Part shown: positions 29,525 through 59,618 of the stretch, in pieces | Layout of the letters: each line of letters opens with the position of its first letter | How positions within the stretch are numbered: the first letter of the stretch is position 1 | Assembly (NCBI RefSeq): GCF_043290135.1 | Contig: NW_027464589.1 | Location: forward strand, 377,001 to 441,000 | Length of the DNA stretch: 64,000 bases | DNA from: Rhipicephalus microplus | Lineage: Eukaryota > Arthropoda > Arachnida > Ixodida > Ixodidae | Reading direction: 5' to 3' | Made by a program: the position numbers and the translations under genes | Notes under the pieces: model-generated | What the model was told of the DNA's origin: nothing | What the model saw: only the letters and a program-made list of their open reading frames with translations | The model's database searches: none

Positions 29525-30055
29525 AAGGTGAAGTTTCTGGAGGGGAAACTGCTTGTTGTCGAAACGTTGCAACTCCTCCGTCTCGCCCAGCTAATTTACT
29601 GCCTGTTTGTGTGGAAGGTGTATTTGTTGATGCCCTTATAGACATTGGATCCGCCAGTTTAGTAATTAATCGTGAATTGTGTTTCCGCCTGCGTAAAGTG
29701 CAAACTCCTTATTCCGGTCCCATGTTATGTGGCGCTAATGACAGTCCGATTTGCCCGACCGGATTGTGTACTGCTCATGCTCTCATCGATGGAATCCGTC
29801 ATCACGTGCATTTGGCTGTGCTATCTTCGTGCGCTCATCAGATAATAGTAGGCTGGGACTTTTTTCAGCTGCGTCTGCTGTAACTTCGTGTGATGGGCCC
29901 CTCATTCGTATTATGGACACTGAGCTTTCTTCAGCGGCCAACCTTTCGTTGCCCAACCTTGTCACAGCTGCAGATTTTCTCCTGCCTCCCGGACAAGAAC
30001 GGGTCCTTACGGTCAAGTCACGAGCATATCCCACATTCCAGGAGGTATATGACGT
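29515..30055 (+). pseudogene. pol: Gypsy E1 protease remnant
   Basis: The frame -1 to gag gives VEGVFVDALIDIGSASLVI, in which the aspartic protease motif DTG reads DIG. HLAVLSSCAHQIIVGWDF follows, then a stop at 29881. The remaining 170 bp continue with weak similarity before the junction with PLE1. The active-site change and truncation make it non-functional. Confidence 0.75.
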
Positions 30056-31462
30056 TGTCTGAGTCACAGTCAAGTGCACCTTTTATCCTGTGCTTAAAAT
30101 CCGAGTGGGTGCTTTTCGCCACTGTCGTTGTCTGCATGTGTTTGCATACCTTGCATCTGCTTTTTCCGCAAGGTTGACACCCAATTTGAGATTTCCGTCT
30201 ATCTTTGAATTTATTAAATGATCATTTATATTTTTAGGCCGTCTGTATACAACACAAGGAGGAGAAGTGAAAATTTTGGATAGTCGCACGCTTTGTTCCA
30301 ATATGTTAGTGTTTTCTTAGGACCTTTTTTATGTTCGGTGGGTTGCTCGTGAAAGTTAATAGCAAGTTTTTGTTGCGGTGTTGCTCGGCGTTTTTCTCGT
30401 GGTTGAGAAGAATCTGGCGGTCCAGATTTTCAGCTTTTTTGATGGCGTCATTGATGATAGCTGGCGGGTATTCTTGATTAGGGATTACTTCGCGCATATG
30501 TGTGCTGTTTTTGTGGAAGTCCTTGATGCGGGAGCAGATTCGTCGGAATATGTGTGCTTGGGAATAGGGAATGTTGGACTTGCAATGTCGAGAGGCAACT
30601 TTTGAAGTGCAGGTATTGTTGCCTGTCCGTAGGTTTTCTGTATACGCTATTTACCAACGCACCATCGTCAACTCGAATGAGTACATCAAAAAAGTTTATT
30701 TCAGTGTTAGAGTAGGAGTGCGTAAAATAAATGCTGGGGTGTACCTGGTTGAATGCCTGTATAAATTTGAGGAGCTCGTTTTCCGAATGTGTCCAAATTA
30801 TGAATATATCATATAGGTATCATTTATAGCAAAATGGTTTGATATCACAAGATGAAAGAAAATTGGACTCTATATTGTGCATGAATATGTTAGCGTAGTT
30901 TAGGGCCATTCTGGCACCCATTGCCGTGCCGCTGATTTGAAGGTAGTACTGGTTGTTAAATTCAAAGCTGTTCAATTCGAATACAAGTCTTGTGAAGATT
31001 TCGATTACTTTTTTGCTTGGATATGCGACAGGGTTGTGTGTGCCATACGATTCAACAAGCCCCCGTACACCATCGTCATTTGGGATATTTGTGTAGAGTG
31101 AGCTAACATCCAATAATACGAGGAATGCACCGTCTGGAATTTTCACGTCTGCTATTTGCCGAAGGAAAGGGTTGGTGTCACGCAAGAAGGACTTATGTGT
31201 GGGTGGTATGTCTTTGAATAAAGAATCAATATAACTGGAAATGGGTTCCATTAACGTTCCCGTGCCTAATATAATGGGCCTGCCAGAGTTATTCTCTTTA
31301 TGAATTTTCGGCAGCATGTAAAAACGACCAAGCGCCGAATGTACCGTAATTAGTGCATTTTTAAGCTTTGAATCAATGGCGCCTTCACGTGTGAGATCCT
31401 CTAGGGTTGTTACAATGATCTTTTTGTGCTCCGTGGTAGGGTCAAAGTTGAGGTGTATGTAG
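30056..31462 (-). pseudogene. PLE1: Penelope-like RT and GIY-YIG remnant, right-hand part split off by Gypsy E
   Basis: A minus-strand Penelope-like element. 31512-30820 holds RT motifs GRFYMLPKIHK, GRPIILGTGTLMEP, VLLDVSSLYTNIP and SGTAMGARMALNYANIF. Downstream the active-site region reads YLYDIFIIW, with a stop before it, where family members have YxDD, so one catalytic Asp is lost. The later part gives VYRKPTDRQQYLHFKS and GCQPCGKSRCKVCKHM, the Cys-rich linker before the GIY-YIG nuclease. The nuclease itself is cut off at about 30055. The N-terminal part lies at 36677-36872, beyond Gypsy E. Confidence 0.85.
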
Positions 31463-31638
31463 TGTAGGGAACTATGCGAACGACGACGAAGCAGCATGAA
31501 ACGGCAAGCCACAGCGTTGGTGCATGCGCGCGACCCGAGCTTGCGTTTGTTTTGTATTTTTCGGCCTGTTGGCGTTCCTCGCTCTTCTGGCGTTCCTCGG
31601 CCTTCCAGTAGGTCTGTACTTGAATAAACTGCGTGACA
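31463..31638 (+). repeat. Gypsy E 5' LTR
   Basis: 176 bp from TGTAGGGAACTATGCGAACG to AATAAACTGCGTGACA, TG...CA ends, with AATAAA close to the end. Confidence 0.93.
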
Positions 31639-36676: not shown

Positions 36677-36872
36677 GTAGAATTGTTTGTTATTTAGTTG
36701 TCACTTGCCTTTCTCAATGTAGTCCGATCTATTCAGAACAACAATCATGCCTCCTTTGTATGATGGTCTAATGACGAGATCTTTGCAGTTGCTCAACGTG
36801 AGTAGCGCCTCTTTTTCTCGTTTTGATATGTTATTCACGCTTGCGTTGTGCACCTTTTACGCATGTATAATA
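36677..36872 (-). pseudogene. PLE1 N-terminal part, left of its Gypsy E split
   Basis: The minus-strand frame gives CKDLVIRPSYKGGMIVVLNRSDYIEKG, shown here in pieces: DLVIRPSYKGG, MIVVLNRSDY. It matches the PLE3 segment DIVKKPADKGGAIVIMN at about 53296-53345. It lies directly beyond the GTAG target duplication of Gypsy E, so it continues the RT of 30056-31462. Confidence 0.8.
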
Positions 36873-36885
36873 TCTTTCTGAACCA

Positions 36886-36913
36886 CGTCTATATAGAGAT
36901 CCCTATATAGACG
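36886..36913. repeat. Short palindrome
   Basis: 11-bp arms CGTCTATATAG and CTATATAGACG with a 6-nt loop. It lies between the PLE1 remnant and the Gypsy G scrap; role unknown. Confidence 0.7.
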
Positions 36914-36929
36914 CGGTTAGTCTCTACAT

Positions 36930-37382
36930 ATAGGGCAGTGTCCGTGAGAAACAGTGCTACGTTATCCAGGTGATCGATAGAGTTCCAGCGGTTGTATCGG
37001 CTCACCCTTTGGTAGTGCGTTAGCCACGCGTCTACATCTTCTCCCGCCATTCCTGCAAACGAGCGGGATTCCATGTAGTGATGCCTGGGTGTAGCCAGCG
37101 TAGACCTGCACGAAGTCGAGGGAGTTAATTCCCGACCTTCACTCTCGGTCATGACGGTTGTTGTCGGTGGCAGACCAGCAAGACGACGACTCCGGCGAAC
37201 TCCGAACAGCTGGGGCTCCACGGTACGTCGACGTGCCGTCCCCAGCACCTCCACCACTCTGTTACGTCTACGAGAGGGGTTTATTCAGAGCCGACGTAAC
37301 GGTCGACTGGACAATATACAGCAGTGAACGCGCCCCAGCATGCTCTTGCCATCAACCGAACATCCTCCTCTTCTGAAACCAC
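36930..37382 (-). pseudogene. gag: Gypsy G: LTR end and gag N-terminal fragment
   Basis: On the minus strand, LTR-like DNA (about 37382-37260, with AATAAA and a ...ACGTAACA end) is followed by GAGTGGTGGAGGTGCTGGGG, the PBS-like motif shared with Gypsy C and D. A frame then gives SFAGMAGEDVDAWLTHYQRVS and ALFLTDTAL, the Gag N-terminal core. It ends abruptly near 36935. No zinc knuckle or pol follows. The fragment adjoins the PLE1 N-terminal remnant. Confidence 0.65.
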
Positions 37383-45834: not shown

Positions 45835-46366
45835 AAAACACGATACAAGAAAGCGCTTTTCTTAAGTAGGCATGATATATCAAGGGCCCCTGACATGCGA
45901 GTCATCACTATCATCCACTATCTACTGCGATGCGGCGAGTAATGAACAGTGAGCAGAGAATGTCAAATCAATGTTAAAGTAAAATTACGAGAATGCATGA
46001 ATGGTGCTTACATCAAATAGGTCACATGAATAGCAGTTTCAAAACTACTGTGATATATACAAAAAAAAATAAAAATAAAGCTATCACACCCTTATAGAAA
46101 ATCACGCGCACGAAACCCAAAAGTATAACAGAAAACGTTCGAATAAAAAAGTTGCGTTATAAAAATTTCATGGGGCACAAACAGAATCGATAACACAAAG
46201 TGAAGAAATTCACCTCACCGAAACCGTGTACTGAAAATCTGTGTGTACAGCGATTATTAACAGACTGTGATGAAACTGGAACTTATTTCTGCGCCGAAAG
46301 AAACGTCCGTTTGCCTGGATTTTCATTTATACCGGATAAGTTGGCGTTGAACTTGTTTATTAGCAA

Positions 46367-46611
46367 TTACTCGTACAGTTCCCTATTATATTGAGAAGGG
46401 AAACCTGATTCCAGTATAGTAGCTGTTAGTTTATACAATGAGTGACCAGGATTGTTAACGTGCTTAGACAAAGGTAGATTGGGTAGGCTTGTGGCATGTG
46501 ACTTATGATTATTAAAGCGCAGTCTAAAAGACGTTTCAGAATGTCTGAAGTATAGGACTTTGCACACAGAGCATTCAAGCATGTACACAATGTTGCTTGT
46601 GTCGCAGTCAA
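46367..46611 (-). pseudogene. PLE4 GIY-YIG nuclease domain
   Basis: The minus-strand frame MLECSVCKVLYFRHSETSF then RLRFNNHKSH and LPLSKHVNNPGHS aligns with the PLE3 nuclease (LLQCSLCDLQYIGQ, RLRFNNHRSH). GIY-YIG nucleases of PLEs nick target DNA. The YIG motif reads YFR here, so the active site is damaged. A premature end lies at 46367. Confidence 0.8.
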
Positions 46612-47199
46612 AGTCCCCTTTAATTTTTAGATGAAAGAATGATGCTGTGCTCTTAACAAAAGTTATCTTCGTTATATGGTTGCAAACTTTGCAACGGGGT
46701 TCGTTGAATAGATGACAACCAGAAAACTGGTGGGGGTAATCCTTGATGATGTTGGTACGTCACGTAGGTCCTTAGATCTGCGCTATGCCACACGTGAGGG
46801 ATAAGGAAAAGTGTTTTTAAGGTGATCACTCTGTAGTAGTATGTTGTGATGCTTCTAAATAATGCTGCTGATGTTTGGTGTAGATGCGGAGTACGTTATA
46901 GCCAGGCTCGCGCTTGACGATGCGGCGTTCTTCTTCCGAATAAAAAGTTCCTTACGGTCAATGTTCTTAGCCTGTTTTATTAGCATGGTTGATGATTCGT
47001 GGTGGATATTTTTGTTTCTTTAGAGCCCCCCGAAGTCTGGAGCAGTTGTCTGTAAATCTGAATTTTTCGAACATATTTTCTTTAAACGCAGTGCTTGACC
47101 ATAGGGGATTGCCGTTTTGCAGTGCTTTCGATGTGAATTTTTGAAATATAGGTATGACTGCCGATCCGTGGGTTTTCTAAAGTGTTTAGTCGTCACTTG

Positions 47200-48980
47200 A
47201 TTAGCCCGTTTAGTAACCGTGACGCCAAGAAAGATTATTGCTGTGCTTGAGTATGATTTTGAAGAAGAGATGGTGAGATGAGCCTTGTAGAAGTATGCAA
47301 CGAACGACAGAAGTTCTGTCTCTCCGTGCTGTCAGATCAGAAACACATCGTATATATAACACCTATAATAAATTAGTTTGAGACAGCATGCGTCTAAGAA
47401 TTTATCTTCTAGTTGGCCCATAAGGATATTTGCATAGCATTGGTCCAATTTTCGTACACATAGGAATGCCACTAACCTGTTTATAATGCGCACCATCAAA
47501 TGCGAAAGTGTTCAATGTCAGGATTGGTTCTAGTAACCACGCTTGTGTGTTGCTGTCCACCGTTTTGTTAGAAACGTTTTGTTCATAAGCCTCCATATTG
47601 GTTGAATGCCATCAATATGCGGGATGTTCGTATAGAGTGAGGCTATGTCTAGTGTCACAAGCAATGAACTAGGTGGCACGTCGAGGTCAATGATGTCGAG
47701 CAAAAAATGGTTTGTATCTTTTAGGTATGAATTGAAAGCGGGTGGGATATTCCTAATGAGATTATCAACGAAGCTAGACATTGATTCACGTTGCCAATAG
47801 CAGAAACAACGATGCCAATAGCAGAAACGATGCCAATAGCAGAAACAATGGGTCGGCAAGGATTGCTTGCTTTGTGTATTTTCGGCAGGATATCAAATCA
47901 CCACGAGCTGGGGATAAGGGGGATCAATGACCTAATAACTCTCTCGCTGATTTTGTCACGTTTTACAAGGTCGTTTATGGTATTGGAAACTATTTTCCTG
48001 TACCACTCTGTCGGATCGTCATCAAGACGCTTACAGAAATGAATATCATTCAGCTCTCTTTGAATCTCAGTAATTTATTCAAACCTATTCATTGTTACTA
48101 CAGCGCCTCTTTATCTGCTGGTTTGATAATTATGTTTTCGCGATCTTAAAGCTTACGGAGGGCTTTTTTCAGAAATGGACAGATTATGCTTAAAGGAAGT
48201 GGGTTTCTTATAGGCTTCTAGAATGTCGCCTTGTACTGCTAAGATGTAGGGATCAAGAAACGTGGCACGTTCGTTGGAGGTGTCCAGAGCTCGCGGCATC
48301 GCATGTGCGAAGAAGATGGCCGTTCATGAAAGAATTCCCTTAAACCTAGGTTTCGTGCAAAATTTCTAAAATCCTTTGCTAGCTGGAACTCGTTTTTTTC
48401 TTAACTCGTTAAAGCCACCCGTCGCAGGATAAAAGTTTAAACCCCGAGCAAGTACTGCTAATTCCGGTTCGGATAGAATAACCTTAGAAGTGTTGACAAT
48501 GTTAGTGGACTTGTCTACTTCTGTATTATCAGAATCGGCTATTCCTTTACCAGCTGTCTCAGGAAATATTTTGTCGCGGAGCAAGTTGCTAGCCTTTTTT
48601 GAGTGGATTTCAGCGTATTTACTTTGTTCGTATTCGTTGAGGGCCCTGATCTCTGAAGAACTCATCGGATGCGAGACGCGTAGTTGTCGGTCAGTGTTAA
48701 ACAATGCTTTGGGGGATTCTATGTAATGGTCGATCACGACACGCGTTAGGTCTAAAGAAGGATTTGTTAAGGTTGCATTCAATATGTCACTGTTGTGGCT
48801 CGATATTTAGGAAGTTGCTGGTTTCAACGAAAGTCGACGCCCCTCAGATACCGTCAAAGCAGTTACATAGGTACAAAGTGTGGACACGTGGAGAGCATGA
48901 CGGATTCGTTTTTCAATAACCTTCCTGATTTTACAAAAACCCGAATAGTTTGATAGATTAACTGCCGGTTGGAATACTAG
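47200..48980 (-). pseudogene. PLE4 reverse transcriptase, broken
   Basis: The phase continues directly from the TGA-CTAG junction at 48983. KIRKVIEKRIRHALH and a stop in KPATS-stop-ISS come first, then VVIDHYIESPKALFNT and LSEPELAVLARGLNFYPATGGFNEL (48782-48366). Later fragments have LLVTLDIASLYTNIPH (about 47670-47620) and HYKQVSGIPM (about 47490). The active-site region reads YIYDVFLI (about 47360), so the first catalytic Asp of YxDD is a Tyr. Several stops and frame changes. Homologous throughout to PLE3. Confidence 0.82.
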
Positions 48981-49990
48981 TCAATAATTAGAGACCTTGC
49001 TGAATTTAGCAATTCTAAGCTTGTGTGGGTGTGAAGTAGGAAAAGTGACGAACCTTTTTTGTGGTGGCTGCGTCTGCAAACTTGAAGCGTTGTTTTGAGG
49101 AGCCTGGTGCTCTGTCGTATGAAGGGAGTCACCGGTGCGTTGGTTTTGCGAGGGAAACGGTCGGGTGGCGTGCTCTTGCTTTGAGGGACTGTTCAACTGT
49201 CCAATGAAGGAGGGCTCCTTTGTGTATTGCTTCGGTTCGGGTGGTATGCGGTTGAACGAACCTTGCTTCGGAGATGCTCTTTGCTGTCGTTTGCCCGAGG
49301 GCTTACTTAGCTGTTGATCCAGGGATGACAGCAGTCGATCGGGCGACTTCTGTTTTCGGGAACAGCTGGTTGCGTGATCAAGCCATGAGCAAGATATGAT
49401 ATTGCGCATGTTGCGAGGACATAGTTGTCGGATATGGCTCGCCATGAGGACGACGCTCTCGTAGCTGGGATGTAGCCACCAGCAGCGAGAACACGTGGCG
49501 ATGGGAACCACTCGAAACCGTGGTTCATAAATAATACAAGACGAGAGTGGCGGCAAAATTCTTTCAGGCGGCGATTAAATTCACATGCTTCTCGATTGCA
49601 GTGTTGTACAGTCGCTGTGTTGCAGCTGCCGCGGCAACAATTCGTAAATCGATGAAGGACTAACCTTGCATGTATCCGGTGTATTCCAGAGCGTTGCGAA
49701 GCAATGAAGTTCAGCAGGTCTCTATATTTATCAAGCGCCACGCGACCGGTGTTGCGGATGAGGTCATTAGTCCCGACGCTTAGGATAAGGGTCGTTGTTG
49801 ACGATGGCATGAAGTCCAGTAACACACGTACGTCATCGATGTTGGCGGCACACTGTGGAACGAAGGCGGGACTGCCTTCTCGAGCAGGCTTGAAGTGCTG
49901 TTAAAGGTACGTTGTTTGGGAGTCCTCTACAACGGCCGTTGAAACCAGCGTCTTTGGGAACTTCCACCGTTTCTTGAAGTGCTCAAAGTG
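48981..49990 (-). pseudogene. PLE4 ORF1, SGNH-hydrolase-like, with TGA-CTAG end
   Basis: The frame from about 49990 gives FPKTLVSTAVVEDSQTTYL then a stop at 49901. The same phase gives STTTLILSVGTNDL (block with GxND, 49825-49500). A one-base frame change near 49465 is followed by LHPSYESVVLMASHIRQLC. A Pro/Gln/Ser-rich tail ends KVSNY at TGA 48983-48981. It aligns with PLE3 ORF1 (51527-52435) over its length, including HCNREACEFN and EWFP.PRVLAA. In this copy GDS reads EDS and the Asp of the DxxH block is lost, so it is dead. The stop is followed by CTAG and the RT phase continues in frame. Confidence 0.78.
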
Positions 49991-49994
49991 AAGT

Positions 49995-50119
49995 TGTTTT
50001 ACATGGCTACTTTTGAAATGAAGGTGTCGGTGAGCGTCGGTGGGTTTTCTGTATACTTTAGTAGATAATTTTTCGCCGCAAAAGGCAAAAAATTCATTCA
50101 AAAGCAGCCATGTAAAACA
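49995..50119. repeat. Inverted repeat at head-to-head PLE junction
   Basis: 23-bp arms (49995-50017 and 50097-50119, one mismatch) encode the same PLE peptide FKSSHVK in opposite orientations, with a 79-bp spacer. Confidence 0.85.
49998..50096 (-). pseudogene. PLE RT thumb fragment, minus strand
   Basis: The frame gives CGEKLSTKVYRKPTDAHRH then LHFKSSHVK, matching PLE3 at about 58524-58605. It is joined on its left to PLE4 ORF1 and on its right to a plus-strand PLE fragment in inverted orientation. Confidence 0.75.
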
Positions 50120-51370
50120 TTGTAAGACGAGTATACCCTACAGTCAAGCACTTCGTTTCAAAAGGCTGTGCTCTGAAAGTTCAGACTTTACTGAAAACTG
50201 TGATAATCTTCGTGATTCCCTAACTGTACAACAGTACCCGCCTCAAATTATCGACAACGCGATCATGCGCGCCGATGCAATGGACCGAACAGCGCTTCTA
50301 AAATGAAATAAAGAACCTGCGCTCCGGAAGCACATCAATTTAATTCTGACACATTCTCCGGCAATTCCAAATGCTAACGCGATTCTCAAAAAGCACTACA
50401 ATATACTAATGCAGAGCAATCGTCTCAAAGACGTCTTCCCGGAGCCTCCACGAGCAGTTTACCGCCGATCGAGAAACCTACGAGACATACTTACGTCATC
50501 CAAACTATCAACGCCAGCCAATGTGGGGTGTCACCCATGCAACAAGGCACGCTGCAAGGTGTGCCCACACATGACCACGTCGCGTATTGTTAAGAGCTCT
50601 GCATCAAACTTCACTCTCTGGATAAAAGGCGATTTCGACTGCGACACGAGCAATGCAATCTACTTGCTGCAATGTTCATTGTGTGACCTCCAATATATTG
50701 GTCAAACGGAGACAACTTTCCGGTTGCGCTTCAATATTCACAGGTCACACGTCAGGTGCCTGCCTAGCCTTCCCCTGTCCAAACACCTCGCTACCCCAGG
50801 CCACTCTTTCGACAACATAACTGCCACAATTCTCGAATCTGGTTTTAAATCGCACTACAAAAGAAAAGTCTGTGAATCTTATTCATAAATTTAATGTCAT
50901 AGCGTCTGGAATAAACGAGAACCCAGGGAGGCTTACGTTTTTACCGGCAAAAGAGATAAATCAACCGCCGTAGCCCACATACACGTTTTTTCACTGCCGT
51001 TATTACGTTGCGGTGTCATTGGTGACACATTAGTTAGTTTACCAGAAAGCATGCACACTCTGTTACCACATTTGTGACATCAATGGTGATATTATGTTCA
51101 TGTATATTTTATTGACAATGAACGTAACTTACCATGGCGTTGCCTTTTTTGTTCATTCACAAATGTTGCGATATCACAAGTGTCCATCGTATTATTTGTA
51201 TCTATGTTTTCAACTCACCTTGCCCTACCATATTCTGTATAGCGCACTGCTGCTCCGTTATCAAGAAAATGCTGTGCATGTCTCAATATCTTTTTGTTAA
51301 CATGTATGTCAATATTGCTAAGAGTGATTATTCACAATTGGGGTCCCCCACGCTGTGTTCTTAAGAAGTG
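50097..51370 (+). pseudogene. PLE 3' half: RT end, Cys-rich linker and GIY-YIG domain
   Basis: The frame continues PLE3-type sequence from KSSHVKHCKTSIPYSQALRF (given here in part) to a TGA at 50304. The same phase then gives GCHPCNKARCKVCPHM, a Cys/His linker typical before the PLE nuclease. The GIY-YIG region follows: IYLLQCSLCDLQYIGQTE, RLRFNIHRSH and ATILESGFKSHY, ending at a natural-looking stop at 50886-50888. The C-terminus is complete here, unlike in PLE3. It lies upstream of PLE3 in the same orientation, so it forms a partial tandem copy, a common PLE arrangement. Confidence 0.85.
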
Positions 51371-51395
51371 CGTGTTAGTGTAATATGCACGTATG
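50890..51395 (+). other. PLE 3' non-coding region
   Basis: AT-rich non-coding DNA between the GIY-YIG stop and the hammerhead-like motif, taken as the 3' region of the tandem PLE copy and the start of PLE3. Confidence 0.5.
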
Positions 51396-51396
51396 C

Positions 51397-51445
51397 CCTG
51401 ACGAAGGCCGGTCCCCGGCCGTAACGTTGGCAATAAAGCATCGTT
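51397..51445 (+). ncRNA. Hammerhead-ribozyme-like motif upstream of PLE3 ORF1
   Basis: CTGACGA (51398-51404) is followed by AGGCCGGTCCCCGGCC, which forms a perfect 6-bp stem with a 4-nt loop, and then GTAACG. The hammerhead core is CUGANGA-stem II-GAAA. The GAAA part reads GTAA here, one change away. Hammerhead ribozymes are known in PLE terminal repeats. The motif lies about 80-130 bp before ORF1. Activity of this copy is doubtful. Confidence 0.45.
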
Positions 51446-51526
51446 TTTAGTTTGCTCGTTCGCTTCTTCTGGTGACTTATAACTCGACCGGAATCCAGGA
51501 AGACTTTCAAGAAATACCAAATACCT

Positions 51527-52435
51527 ATGGATTCTGGCAGGACGGCAACGAAAACGATCAAACGGAAATTCCCGAAGACGACAGTTTCAATGGCTGTCGT
51601 TGGCGACTCCCAAACGAAATATATGTTTCAGCATTTCGACCCTCTTCGAGAGGGCACTCCTGCGTTCATCACACAGTTTGGCGCTGTGATACGTGACGTA
51701 CATGGCCTTTTGGACTTCGTGCCATGTTCAACGACAACTCTGATTCTTCATGTTGGAACGAATGATTTGGTTCACAGCACTGGATGTGTAACGTTCCACA
51801 AGTACAAGGCCCTGCTACAACTCATTCTGTCGAAACGCCCCATGATAACCCGGATCTATGCAACTTTATTACTACCCAGTGCTTTAAACTGCCGTCGTGA
51901 CAAGCACAATGAAGCAATTGTCCGCCACTGTAATCGCGAAGCCTGTGATTTCAACGACCACCTATTGAGCTTCTGCTGTCGCTCTTACCGGGTGTTCTTT
52001 CTGGACCATGCCTTGGAATGGTTTCCATCGGTGCGCGTCCTCGCGGCAGACGGCCTTCACCCAAACTTCGAGGGCGTTGCACTGATGGCTGGCCACATAA
52101 AGCAGATGTGTTTCCGGAACTCAACGGACGCCTCATCTTCCTCTTGGCTAGACCACATGCCCAGTGGTCCGTTGAAGCAATCCTCCAACGCCCACCAACC
52201 TGGTCTTGTGGAACTTGCATCCTCGCCCCGCTCATCTTCACCCCAACGCCTCCAAGTGCCCGAAATCTACACCGAGCCACTTGCGCAAGAAAAATCTACC
52301 TACGCCACAGTTGCTGCGAAATCAAGGAACCAAGGACTCTCCACTCGTGAAAGGTCTGGAAACAATTCTTTGTCTCACCGTTACGCTTTAAGAAAATTCA
52401 ATCGTGAAAAAAGCACTGTATCTTCAAAGAATTGA
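51527..52435 (+). CDS. PLE3 ORF1: SGNH/GDSL-hydrolase-like protein, intact
   Basis: A 302-residue frame with ATG start and TGA stop. The motif blocks of the SGNH hydrolase superfamily appear in order: AVVGDSQTKYM near residue 26 (GDS, nucleophile Ser), TLILHVGTNDL near residue 75 (GxND, oxyanion-hole Asn) and AADGLHPNFEGV near residue 170 (DxxH, catalytic Asp and His). The C-terminal third is Ser/Pro-rich and low in complexity. SGNH enzymes hydrolyse esters; a PLE role is unknown. Esterase-like ORF1 proteins are known from CR1-type LINEs, but I do not recall them from PLEs. The stop is TGA-CTA and the RT frame follows in phase. The diverged copy in PLE4 supports conservation. Confidence 0.8.
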   Translation: MDSGRTATKTIKRKFPKTTVSMAVVGDSQTKYMFQHFDPLREGTPAFITQFGAVIRDVHGLLDFVPCSTTTLILHVGTNDLVHSTGCVTFHKYKALLQLILSKRPMITRIYATLLLPSALNCRRDKHNEAIVRHCNREACDFNDHLLSFCCRSYRVFFLDHALEWFPSVRVLAADGLHPNFEGVALMAGHIKQMCFRNSTDASSSSWLDHMPSGPLKQSSNAHQPGLVELASSPRSSSPQRLQVPEIYTEPLAQEKSTYATVAAKSRNQGLSTRERSGNNSLSHRYALRKFNREKSTVSSKN

Positions 52436-52438
52436 CTA
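52433..52438 (+). promoter_or_regulatory. Candidate readthrough stop TGA-CTA between ORF1 and RT
   Basis: The ORF1 stop TGA is followed by CTA. UGA-CUA is a known leaky context for stop-codon readthrough. The next codons continue in the same phase into the RT N-terminal region (RDFLRIRKIVEKRVKYKLH) with no further stop until 52691. PLE4 has TGA-CTA-G at the matching place (48983-48977), again in phase. Whether readthrough occurs is inference. Confidence 0.55.
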
Positions 52439-53873
52439 ATACCGATCTCATGCGACAACGCTATTCAGGGTCGTGACTTTCTCAGAATTAGAAAAATTGT
52501 GGAAAAGCGAGTGAAATACAAACTTCACCCGTCTATGCTAAACACCTATGTAAACACCTTGACTGTACCGAAAGGACTTGTGATTTCGCTCAAACCAGCA
52601 ACTTCCCAAATGTCACAACGCAACGTCGAGAAATGGAACGAAACGTTAAAAAATGCGTCTCTAGCTCTCATGCGCATCATCATCGACCATTAAAATTCTG
52701 CTGTCAAAGCGTTGCTAAACAGTGAACGACAGTTGCGCAAGGCTCGTATGTTGGATCCCTCTGAATCGGCTTCGCTGGTTAAATACGAACAGAGAAAACA
52801 ATTAGAAGTTGAACAGAAGAAAGCAAAAAAGTTTTTGCGTGACCACATTACCCTTCCAAAACCACTGACCAACGAAGATTCCCTTCCCGTCGAATCATCC
52901 TGTTCTAGACGAGACAAACTATCAGCTAGACCTAACGTAGTAAACGTTTCAAACTTGGTTTTATCTGACTCAGAAATGAGTGTGCTTGCTCGGGGCTTGA
53001 ATTTCTGTCCAGCTACTGGCGGCTACAATGAATTTAACTTGGTAAAAGACTTAAATAAATTCGCGCACAGTATGAAGCTAAGCGAATTTTTCCATAAACG
53101 TTCATCATCCAAGAGTAACATGTCTTCCCATCAACACTGGACGCCGCCAACACAGCGCGATTAATTCCTCGATATGTACATTTCTGCAGTTTAGCGTGAC
53201 ATCCTGCAGGCTTATGGGAACCGCATTTCATTCAAAGGAAACCTCACATTCAAAGAACGGAATGCAGTTAAATGTTTACAAGAACGCACAGATATTGTAA
53301 AAAAACCGGCTGATAAAGGAGGCGCAATCGTGATAATGAACACAACGGACTACGTTTATGAAGCTCAGAGACAGCTAGATAATGACACGTTTTACAAGCG
53401 ACTCAGTGAAAACCCCACCGAAGAATATAAAGACATCGTTACTGATACAATCAAGCATTTACTACTGGATGACAAACTTCCCGATAAAGCAAAGTACTCA
53501 TTAGTCCCACTGAGCCCTGTTCCAGGAAGGTTTTACCTATTGCCTAAAATACATAAGCCCAATAACCCTGGTCGTCCTATAGTGTCAGGCATTGGCACTT
53601 TCACCGAACTACTTTCAAGCTATGTCGATGGCCTGATTTATACTACCTCCAACTTTTCCATCCTATCTGAAGGACACTTCTCATTTCCTCGCTGACATCA
53701 TCGACCTGAATATACCTGCTGACTCATTTCTGGTAACATTAGATGTTGCGTCACTTTATACTAATATTCCCCACAAAGACGGCATTCGTGCCATAGTGGA
53801 TGCTTATAACGACTCATCATGTGACAAATCCGTTGATAGCTTTACAATAGCCACATTAAAAAAACTCATCCTG
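52436..53873 (+). pseudogene. PLE3 reverse transcriptase, N-terminal and middle part
   Basis: In phase with ORF1. RDFLRIRKIVEKRVKYKLH, then stops at 52691, 53162 and 53192. Recognisable segments are LSDSEMSVLARGLNF, KKPADKGGAIVIMN (about 53300), PGRFYLLPKIHK and GRPIVSGIGTFTELL. A frame change near 53640 restores as FPSYLKDTSHFLADIIDLNIP and VTLDVASLYTNIPHKDG (about 53740). The duplicated block begins at 53874 and the last 180 bp are repeated at 58033. The enzyme would copy element RNA; this copy is broken. Confidence 0.88.
53694..53873 (+). repeat. 180-bp direct duplication, left copy
   Basis: Identical to 58033-58212. It encodes the PLE3 RT segment DIIDLNIPADSF to TLKKLIL and flanks the inserted duplicate block. 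Confidence 0.97.
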
Positions 53874-56846: not shown

Positions 56847-58026
56847 ATGAATCGAAGCCCCGCGAGCTCAAGACAGCGTAGCCCCGACGACCAGCGTATC
56901 AACCCCGTGGAAGTGACTCCTGTACACCAGAGGGCAAGTCGCCGTCTTCGAGGTGACTCACCTGGGTTCGGTCCTCTTCACTTCATACCAAGGGGAATTC
57001 AAACTATGGATGCCACCACTATGACTACCCAGGTAACACCGGCACAAGTGTTCATTAGCCAACCGCACCAGCCGCCAGTATTCCACGGCGACTCGTACGA
57101 GGATGTTGAAGATTGGCTGGACCTGTTCGAGAGAGTGGCGAGCTTGAATGAATGGGACGAAAGAGAGAAAATCCGTCGCGTATACTTCGCCCTGGAAGAC
57201 TTCGCAAAGACATGGTTTGAGAACCATGAAACCTCGTTGTCTACCTGGGAGGTATTTCGAAGACAAGCGGTGGCTACGTTCGCGAACATGGACCGAAAAG
57301 AAAAAGCGGAAGCTGCTCTTCAATCCAGGAACCAGCTCACAAACGAGAGTGCTGCCATGTACATTGAGGACATGGTCCGTCTGTTCAAGCGTGCGGATTA
57401 TAACATTGCGGAGGATAAGAAGGTGCGCCATCTAATGCGCGGAGTGAAGCAAGAGCTGTTCGCCGTTCTCGTCCGCAACCCTCCAAGCACTGTTGCCGAG
57501 TTTTATTCGGAAGTGACGGCCATCGAAAAAACACTAGAACAACGCGCTCGGAAGTACAACCGGAATCTTAACTGCGCATCTGCACAGGTATTCTCTGGAG
57601 GCGTGCGAAACGACGTTAAAGCCCTGCGAGAACTCATTAGATCAGTCATTAGGGAAGAACTGAGCAGACTGCAAATGCACCAGACTCCAACTGTACTATT
57701 TGTTACAGACGTTGTTCGTGACGAATTGAGGCAGGTCATACGAGAACCAGAGCGTGAGCTGCAGCCGGTTCGACCTATCCGAACGTACTCTAAAGTTCTC
57801 CGACAACCCACAGTACACAACAATGCAGCAGTTGCGATGGCGGTGACTCCTCTCCCATCTACAGCACGCAGCGCACCTCGTCCACGGGAACCAACGGCTA
57901 CCTATCTGCCCCCAGGAGCACGTAGCACGCATCGCTATGTGGAGCCTAGGCCCAGGAAAAGTGACGTCTGGCGTGATCACGAGCGCAGGCCTCTTTGTTT
58001 CCATTGTGGCGAAGCGGGTCATTTGT
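56847..58026 (+). pseudogene. gag: Gypsy D gag, truncated copy
   Basis: Identical to 40374-41553 apart from two substitutions (at about 57137 and 57736). It is cut in the zinc knuckle after CFHCGEAGHL, and the frame runs a few codons into PLE3 DNA to a stop at 58059-58061. No pol follows. Confidence 0.93.
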
Positions 58027-58032
58027 CATTTG

Positions 58033-58212
58033 GACATCATCGACCTGAATATACCTGCTGACTCATTTCTGGTAACATTAGATGTTGCGTCACTTTATAC
58101 TAATATTCCCCACAAAGACGGCATTCGTGCCATAGTGGATGCTTATAACGACTCATCATGTGACAAATCCGTTGATAGCTTTACAATAGCCACATTAAAA
58201 AAACTCATCCTG
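58033..58212 (+). repeat. 180-bp direct duplication, right copy
   Basis: Identical to 53694-53873. The PLE3 reading continues from its end at 58213. Confidence 0.97.
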
Positions 58213-59327
58213 GAGCTTAAAAATTTTCAGTTCGACAGTGTTCACTACGTACAAGTTAGTGGCTCTTCAATGGGCACCGAAATTGGTCCAAATTACGCGA
58301 ATATATTCATGGGCCAATTGGAAAATCATTTTCTTTCAACGTGCAGACTACAGCCATACTACTACAATCGTTTTATAGACGACATTTTTTTCATCTGGCA
58401 TCACGACGAAGCGGAACTAATGACTTTCATTGCAGACTTTAACAAGGTTCATCCATCCATTTCATTGTCACAATCGTACTCGAAGGCATCCATCTGTTTC
58501 CTGGATGTAACAGTATCCCTTTGCGGCGAAAAATCATCTACTAAAGTATACAGAAAACCCACCGACGCTCGCCGATACCTTCATTTCAAAAGCAGCCATG
58601 TAAAACATTGTAAGACGAGTATACCCTACAGTCAAGCACTTCGTTTCAAAAGACTGTGCTCTGAAAGTTCAGACTTTATTGAAAATTGTGATAAGCTTCG
58701 TGATGCCCTAACTGTACAACAGTACCCGCCTCAGATTATCGACAACGCGATCATGCGCGCCGATGCAATGGACCGAAGAGTGCTTCTAAAATCAAATAAA
58801 GAACCTGCGCACCGGAAGCACATGAATTTAATTCTGACACATTCTCCGTCAATTATAAATGCTAACGCGATTCTCAAAAAGCACTACAACATGCTAATGC
58901 AGAGCAATCGTCTCAAAGACGTCTTCCCGGAGCCTCCACGAGTAGTTTACCGCCGATCGAGAAACCTATGAGACATACTTACGTCATCCAAACTATCAAC
59001 GCCAGCCCATGTGGGGTGTCACCCATGCAACAAGGCACGCTGCAAGGTGTGCCCCCACATGACCACGTCGCGTATTGTTATGAGCTCTGCATCAAACTTC
59101 ACTCTCTGGATAACAGGCGATTTCGACTTCAACACGAGCAACGCAATCTACTTGCTCCAATGCTCATTGTGTGACCTCCAATATATTGGTCAAATGGAGA
59201 CAACTTTCTCGTTGCGCTTCAATAATCACAGGTCACACGTCGGGTGCCTGCCTAGCCTTCCCCTATCCAAACACCTCGCTACCCCAGGCCACTCTTTCGA
59301 CAACATAACTGCCACAATACTTGAATC
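58033..59327 (+). pseudogene. PLE3 RT C-terminal part, Cys-rich linker and truncated GIY-YIG
   Basis: Continuous phase with VTLDVASLYTNIPHKDG, QVSGSSMGTEIGPNYANIF, the active site RFIDDIFFIW (about 58372, both Asp present) and STKVYRKPTDARRYLHFKS. A TGA at 58969 replaces a codon that is CGA in the tandem copy at 50097-51370. Beyond it lie GCHPCNKARCKVCPHM and the nuclease start IYLLQCSLCDLQYIGQ with RFNNHRSH. Similarity to the PLE3 type ends at ATILESD near 59327, so the last part of the nuclease is missing. A long open frame starting at 57937 that joins Gypsy D DNA to this part is artificial. Confidence 0.88.
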
Positions 59328-59618
59328 TGATCACCTATGCAAGGCGTTGCATGACTTCATTTACCGGAACAATGCAGGTCAAGTGGTTGTGATCTCGTTT
59401 TTAAGAAAACCACAGTCGTCTACAAGCATTCTAACCAAATAACAAAAGAAATCACCGAGGCCTGTCATTTAGGGGTAGATGTGCATAAGTGAACCATCCG
59501 TGACACTGTATGAAAACAATTTTGGTATTTATGCCACTCTTGATTATCGTTAGGAATGTGACAACACTGCATCGGTGCACTTTTTACTATGCACATGTCG
59601 TCATGTAAGCTGCCAGTA
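59328..59618 (+). pseudogene. PLE2-type 3' tail
   Basis: From 59328 the sequence resembles the reverse complement of 37500-37760: a GAGGCCTGTCAT block, AACCATCCGTGACACTG, CACTCTTGATT.TCGTTA and finally AAGCTGCCAGTA followed by TA repeats. It is the 3' end of a PLE2-like element on the plus strand, joined to the PLE3 nuclease. Confidence 0.7.

Follow-up and report, generated by a model that had tools for sequence, protein, structure and literature searches.

A conserved in-frame UGA between an SGNH-hydrolase ORF1 and the reverse transcriptase ORF2 of tick Penelope-like elements suggests Gag-Pol-like readthrough

The analyzed stretch of DNA, called the window in the following, comprises 64,000 nt of a Rhipicephalus microplus contig. 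Its plus strand contains an open reading frame of 302 codons (ORF1, 51527..52435, ATG to TGA), which encodes an SGNH hydrolase domain (residues 1 to about 205) and a basic tail with a YxLR motif. The ORF1 stop codon and the following three nucleotides read TGA CTA (52433..52438), and the comparison of junctions across families marks this site as a putative readthrough context. The remnant of ORF2 (52436..53873) follows in frame with ORF1 and comprises an N-terminal domain and the first part of a reverse transcriptase (RT), with homology to the RT of Penelope-like elements (PLEs) from 52610 to 53873. This ORF2 is damaged, as an in-frame stop codon lies 85 codons past the ORF1 stop, further lesions are present, and the homology ends at 53873. 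The window element is a dead copy of family A, the term family denoting an informal grouping of copies by sequence.

On the same strand, the ORF1 start codon is preceded by a pLTR or inter-unit region (50971..51526), the placement of which matches the region between the tandem units of two other loci, L015 and L024. Before it lies the 3′ part of another, incomplete family A unit, arranged head to tail with the window element (50097..50970, RT tail and GIY-YIG region; tblastn with the ORF2 of locus L009, 90–94% identity). The GIY-YIG domain was detected in the fragment 50409-50888 with an E-value of 0.0046, below the gathering score. A fragment of a further copy of this family, starting at ORF2 residue 327, is located at 57949..59328 on the plus strand (tblastn, 86% identity to the L009 ORF2). 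More diverged PLE RT remnants were observed at 30024-31488 and 36677-36976 (minus strand), neither of which was found to have an SGNH frame next to it.

A second element of the window, PLE4, is located on the minus strand and has the same order as the window copy. It consists of a diverged SGNH ORF1 (48984..49963; tblastn, 34–59% identity; SGNH homology 49963-49161), a TGA CTA junction that was read in the sequence (48978..48983) with ORF2 in frame after it, and an ORF2 remnant with N-terminal domain, RT, and endonuclease region (46286..48977; tblastn, N-terminus aligned; RT homology 48932-46286). The preliminary description had placed a diverged homologue of the SGNH gene here, and tblastn supported the homology, but the SGNH frame of PLE4 is broken.

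A degenerate, hammerhead-ribozyme-like core (CTGACGA, a GC stem II, GTAAC) was noticed at about 51398-51425 on the plus strand, and a similar core occurs in other families. It lies about 100 nt 5′ of the ORF1 ATG in the window and in L010, L011, L015, L016, L019, L021, and L022, and it has the same placement in the pLTRs of L024-L026 and L028. The core was found in 7 of 7 families inspected, with the core or the cleavage triplet altered in several of them; the window reads GTAAC, and several other families read GAAAC. Stem II is changed on both sides between families (GGCCG/CGGCC versus GGCAG/CTGCC, pairing by eye). Rfam reported no hammerhead at gathering scores in the window and none in seven loci up to an E-value of 1.

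The preliminary description had recognized an intact 302-codon SGNH frame with the blocks GDSQ, GTND, and DGLHP in order. The frame and all three blocks are present, and the profile searches proposed there agreed with the assignment. The window protein matched the Pfam family Lipase_GDSL_2 with an E-value of 8.1e-6 (26.9 bits, below the gathering score of 32.9), and its top match among solved structures was 4c1b, the ORF1 esterase of the zebrafish LINE retrotransposon ZfL2-1 (E 6.5e-4). The E-value of the 4c1b match was 6.2e-7 with a profile of 10 sequences from the same genome, and it was 1e-14, covering residues 4-169 of 171, with a profile made of the window protein and 63 database relatives. 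The second-best structure for this 64-sequence profile was 2hsj (E 1.2e-4). PF13472 was detected at E-values of at most 1e-3 in 60 of the 64 sequences, including the window protein (best 2.3e-11).

The catalytic SGNH set was located by alignments. The codons lie on the plus strand at 51608..51610 for the catalytic Ser28 (GDSQ), at 51761..51763 for the oxyanion-hole Asn79 (HVGTND), and at 52049..52060 for the catalytic Asp175 to His178 (DGLH). S28, G52, N79, D175, and H178 are identical in all 10 aligned sequences. Among 107 database proteins, many of which are fragments, Ser is found at position 28 in 77 of 85 ungapped cases, Asn at position 79 in 79 of 96, and His at position 178 in 105 of 107. 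H75, the equivalent of the transposon-specific H191 of ZfL2-1, is present in 10/10 aligned sequences and in 81 of 93 ungapped relatives. The position aligned to the likewise transposon-specific S228 is occupied by Thr in 55 and by Ser in 41 of 100 ungapped relatives. The ORF1 protein is presumably an active esterase. In the 7 families examined for this feature, its tail has a basic character and contains many disorder-promoting residues. Of 56 long relatives, 28 have an xYxLR-type motif within their C-terminal 90 residues (shuffled average 0.18). In several families, this motif sits shortly before the ORF1 stop. Among the matches listed (120 of 204 in one search, many of them nameless), the named relatives of the SGNH protein were from ticks.

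The 3.26-Gb genome, in which the window belongs to contig C16, was searched with the window protein, and 130 of 2067 candidates were scored. Twenty loci were fetched from the SGNH matches, picked to spread over the groups. A PLE RT was found downstream of the SGNH ORF1 on the same strand in all 20 loci (only partly in L023), so that, within this genome, further copies with the SGNH frame 5′ of a PLE RT do exist and the gene belongs to the element, as had been claimed. It is hardly conceivable that the SGNH frame is a chance neighbor or a host gene beside a PLE fragment, because the same order recurs in 20/20 loci and tandem units have periods of 4172 bp (L015) and 4237 bp (L024); the chance-neighbor reading was ruled out on the former ground.

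Both frames are open in family B (L015-L018) and family D (L024, L025). Rows with identical scores in the ORF1 search suggest many near-identical copies, and thus some families look young. In ORF2, the Pfam domain RVT_1 was found with E-values of 1.5e-6 in L015, just below the gathering score, and 1.4e-8 in L024, above it. The GIY-YIG domain PF01541 had E-values of 5.1e-5 in L015 (above the gathering score) and 0.0011 in L024 (below). The RT was assigned to the PLE type because of this domain and of SLYTNIP and similar motifs, which we take to be PLE-type. On this sequence evidence, the window frame was confirmed as ORF1 of an endonuclease-bearing PLE of the tick. A search for ORF2 relatives in viral contigs yielded none. 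SGNH and ORF2 trees of 7 families showed no strongly supported conflict, with two of the four inner forks open in each.

The preliminary description knew of no SGNH esterase in a PLE and proposed a parallel acquisition. The former is refuted by two publications, PMC3905857 (2013) and PMC5408684 (2017). Schneider et al. found the esterase "even in Penelope-like elements", listed SGNH esterases in CR1, RTEX, and PLEs, and proposed a monophyletic origin (PMC3905857). Rodriguez et al. described GDSL ORFs in the Athena PLEs of rotifers (PMC5408684), which a review of giant transposons repeats for Terminons (PMC6431247). A parallel acquisition is also not favored, because 4c1b is the closest structure, H75 corresponds to H191, and monophyly has been argued (PMC3905857). 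In addition, the PLE SGNH domain aligned to a tick SGNH set, which was built around the SGNH domain of a local MULE, with an hhalign probability of 99.5% (E 1.3e-22). The closeness to this MULE-centered set, the match to 4c1b, and the H75–H191 equivalence fit a shared pool of transposon esterases better than a fresh capture of a host gene.

Two other esterase-bearing transposons of the genome were observed. In MULE copies (C11:320084213-320086831 of assembly G000, L029, and L045), an SGNH domain (PF13472), a ZSWIM3_N-like region, and a MULE transposase domain (PF10551) appear to share an open frame of about 1525 codons, and many highly similar copies have offsets that are multiples of three. 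In this arrangement, a cut-and-paste DNA transposase seems to carry the SGNH module as a fusion. An abundant LINE (L034, L037, and others) has a 345-codon ORF1 with an SGNH-like domain (PF13472, E 7.7e-11) without the canonical D..H, and its ORF2 encodes an APE-type endonuclease in an overlapping, different frame. Capture of the PLE module from this LINE esterase (345-codon frame, L034) was considered but is not supported, as the profile probability was 0.9%, with five LINE sequences only in the comparison, compared with 99.5% for the tick SGNH set and an E-value of 1e-14 for 4c1b.

The in-frame UGA CUA junction between ORF1 and ORF2 had been overlooked in the preliminary description. The junction was read in 12 families (A, B, C, C2, D, E, F, PLE4, G, H, I, and K). 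An in-frame TGA separates ORF1 and ORF2 in all of them, the next base is C in 12/12, and the next codon is CTA in 10/12. TGA is the stop codon at 22 of the 23 junctions read in families A, B, C, C2, D, E, and F, and the single deviation is a TTA in L014, a decayed copy of family A. CTA follows throughout these 23 junctions except for the five of family E, which have CTC. All eight family A loci L001-L008 have TGA CTA, several of them being the same copies as among the 23 junctions. The frame that opens after the stop runs into ORF2 and has 890–897 codons where it is complete (L009, L015-L019, L024-L026); it is shorter in damaged copies.

The junctions of families G, H, and I (L059, L060, and L061) were fetched afterwards by their coordinates as a test of the predicted in-frame TGA. 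All three have TGA CTA with ORF2 in frame. For these families, the sequence read was the junction only, and the frame upstream is probably SGNH, as judged by open frames about 1241, 1303, and 1285 codons long and by the tail. TGA CTA is also present in L062, a close relative of family F. Family K (L063, G000 C1:150853250-150853650) has an in-frame TGA CAT and an SGNH match upstream. CUA is thus not universal after the UGA, with UGA CUC in family E and UGA CAU in family K.

In a table of 11 families, TGA CT is invariant (11/11) and the following A is found in 10/11, whereas the other positions reach 4–8/11, except for position −2 (A in 11/11). The flanks of the conserved site have diverged between families. 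In six ORF2s, CTA accounts for 98 of 553 Leu codons (17.7%). The chance of 10 CTA among 11 Leu codons was calculated by hand to be about 3e-7 under the assumption of independent families, but the families share ancestry and are not fully independent cases. Folding of 90 bases in 8 families did not reveal a common 3′ RNA stimulator. Notably stable 3′ folds were obtained only for E and C2 (z −2.8 each; −3.6 for E over 140 bases).

The genome-wide distribution of the stop codons was analyzed with three queries that span the junction and carry a residue in place of the TGA. The stops were listed for each match and counted by hand, the position of a stop within the row not being given. A single TGA was the sole stop in 115, 123, and 121 of the 150 rows listed for each query (of 151 matches for the third one); the three queries overlap in loci, and the counts are not additive. 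Junction-covering rows with another sole stop were restricted to one TAG, one TAA, and one TAG for queries 1, 2, and 3, respectively. The remaining rows either lacked a stop, in part since the match began only past the junction, or contained several, which is expected of decayed copies. In the control, a search with ORF1 alone, stops occurred in 25 of 130 rows, and the lone stops were 6 TGA, 6 TAG, and 7 TAA, i.e. unbiased. Frames of 1199 codons, as in family B (304 + TGA + 894), were present in at least 22 rows of the first query, and frames of 1297 codons, as in family D (406 + TGA + 890), in at least 18 rows of the second.

Selection was quantified as dN/dS, as the preliminary description had suggested for copies of the element. 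Among family A copies, the ratio was 0.26–0.61 in 7 of 10 pairs, and for the closest three, it was 0.33, 1.19, and undefined. Because these copies are dead or damaged, the values are uninformative on present function. For the related intact families C and C2, a single pair, the Nei-Gojobori method gave ratios of 0.15 (SGNH domain), 0.14 (ORF2), and 0.43 (ORF1 tail). In this pair, the SGNH domain is therefore constrained as tightly as the RT.

An alignment of 8 families showed that the conserved ORF2 protein starts about 16 codons past the TGA. The first AUG after the stop is found at codon 209 in C and codon 208 in C2, and earlier in families D (50), F (39), E (30), and B (19); it varies among family A copies (59 for L009, 34 for the window copy, 2 and 73 elsewhere). 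Between C and C2, the 192 codons 16–207, which precede the AUG, have a dN of 0.124 and a dS of 1.099, a ratio of 0.11, compared with 0.14 downstream. The stretch is thus under strong purifying selection in this one pair, and consequently, it is very probably translated.

This observation bears on the possibility that ORF2 is translated separately, by reinitiation, internal ribosome entry, or a non-AUG start, and that the shared frame is the relic of an old fusion. Reinitiation occurs in other retroelements. The AUG at codon 19 of family B lies where the conserved ORF2 begins, so an independent start is possible in that family, and an AUG at codons 30–59 in others would also allow it. However, C and C2 lack an in-frame AUG before codon 208–209 even though codons 16–207 are constrained. 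Furthermore, reinitiation requires neither a common frame in 12/12 families nor a UGA stop that mostly precedes CUA. A non-AUG start is not favored either, as most CTG and GTG codons do not coincide in position between C and C2; nevertheless, GTG 35 of C and GTG 34 of C2 may correspond, since C2 is one codon shorter. In summary, separate translation of ORF2 is improbable, and it is still the best of the rival explanations.

Considerably less probable is that splicing removes the stop and that a spliced mRNA encodes the fusion. There is a precedent in the intron within the ORF of the PLE Pen5 of Adineta vaga (PMC3846280). However, among the 39 junction positions tabulated for 11 families, TGA CT is invariant but neither a GT nor an AG is, and splicing gives no reason why the stop codon itself should be conserved. 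Decoding of the UGA as selenocysteine would agree with the use of UGA in 12/12 families, but it is most unlikely, as no SECIS match was found in seven loci (Rfam, up to an E-value of 1) and the UGA is flanked by a disorder-prone tail on one side and by a diverged linker on the other.

Taken together, the organization of the element, the conservation of the junction site, and purifying selection before and after it are evident at the sequence level, as is, for C and C2, a constrained ORF2 start that lacks an AUG. We infer from them, with a probability of roughly 0.8, that programmed stop codon readthrough yields a minor SGNH-RT-endonuclease fusion beside an abundant SGNH protein. ORF1 and ORF2 would then be one continuous frame, the only interruption being a UGA in a leaky context, mostly UGA CUA. 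The majority of ribosomes would terminate at the UGA and release the SGNH protein, and a small share, perhaps 1–2% by analogy with human UGA CUA sites, would read through and produce a fusion of SGNH domain, tail, RT, and endonuclease. UGA CUA is the high-readthrough consensus for human genes, with 0.61–2.29% readthrough at three sites in HeLa cells (PMC4359377). The abundant SGNH protein might bind the element RNA or direct it to a destination, probably membranes, as has been proposed for ZfL2-1, and the fusion might take the RT into the same putative particle, as with Gag and Gag-Pol.

The link between SGNH esterases and PLEs is real and of a known kind, and the SGNH-UGA-RT/endonuclease arrangement appears to be new in the literature searched. 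Among the literature matches listed, no report of stop codon readthrough in a PLE was found, with subscription papers and Repbase outside the search, and the available text of a recoding review does not mention Penelope (PMC5009743). The closest systems each share a part of the arrangement. The esterase ORF1 of CR1/L2-type LINEs such as ZfL2-1 (4c1b) has profile homology (E 1e-14), the catalytic residues, the H191 equivalent, and the upstream "gag-like" position in common with the tick ORF1, and its role is likely similar. In contrast, these LINEs combine a LINE RT with an APE endonuclease instead of a PLE RT with GIY-YIG, the tick relatives have Thr or Ser at the S228 position, and the tick ORF2 sits in frame behind a UGA. 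Moreover, the LINE-type ORF1 has an N-terminal coiled coil (PMC3905857), whereas the tick GDSQ starts at residue 26, so that the 25 residues before it leave, by length alone, little room for one. The tick ORF1 is therefore regarded as working like the CR1-type esterase and not as a member of that type.

The Repbase PLEs reported in PMC3905857 likewise carry an SGNH esterase. The esterase-bearing elements of all clades aligned there are from chordates, cnidarians, and sponges, whereas the elements described here are from a tick, and the available text does not describe an ORF1-ORF2 junction, the comparison being one by description only. The Athena PLEs and Terminons of bdelloid rotifers also have a GDSL esterase (PMC5408684, PMC6431247), but Athena elements are endonuclease-deficient, reach 40 kb, and contain many ORFs (PMC6431247). 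LINE esterases do not cluster with the Athena GDSL ORFs (PMC5408684). The Poseidon PLE of Anolis (PAc) shares the tandem units with a pLTR and the order N-terminal domain-RT-GIY-YIG; its pLTR holds a hammerhead, where the tick families have a hammerhead-like core. It differs in having a single ORF with its own start, and neither an ORF1 nor an esterase is mentioned in the available text (PMC11167929).

With regard to the mode of expression, retroviral Gag-Pol is the nearest case. The Gag-Pol stop codon of murine leukaemia virus is a UAG with a pseudoknot. As proposed for the tick element, one frame with a single leaky stop delivers the enzyme as a fusion (PMC5009743), but the tick element has UGA CUA, no capsid Gag, and a PLE RT, and it would thus work alike without being a member. 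The readthrough genes AQP4 and LDHB have the same UGA CUA stop context, and the alphavirus context has been called similar (PMC4359377). In these cases, the products are cellular C-terminal extensions or viral proteins and not transposon proteins.

With almost the same confidence as for readthrough itself, we suggest that tick PLEs, in at least 12 families of this one genome and perhaps in ticks at large, express their enzyme by Gag-Pol-like programmed UGA readthrough from an SGNH "gag". The RTs of PLEs share ancestry with the telomerase RT (PMC3846280, PMC5718144), and little is known about the mechanism of PLE transposition (PMC11167929). The site of six bases is directly testable, and many apparently young copies exist. 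If the reading is true, an excess of SGNH protein with a minor SGNH-RT-endonuclease fusion would follow the stoichiometric logic of Gag and Gag-Pol with a protein that is not a capsid. It would also suggest a reason why esterase ORFs recur in unrelated elements: the esterase may be a gag substitute that brings the enzyme to the membrane.
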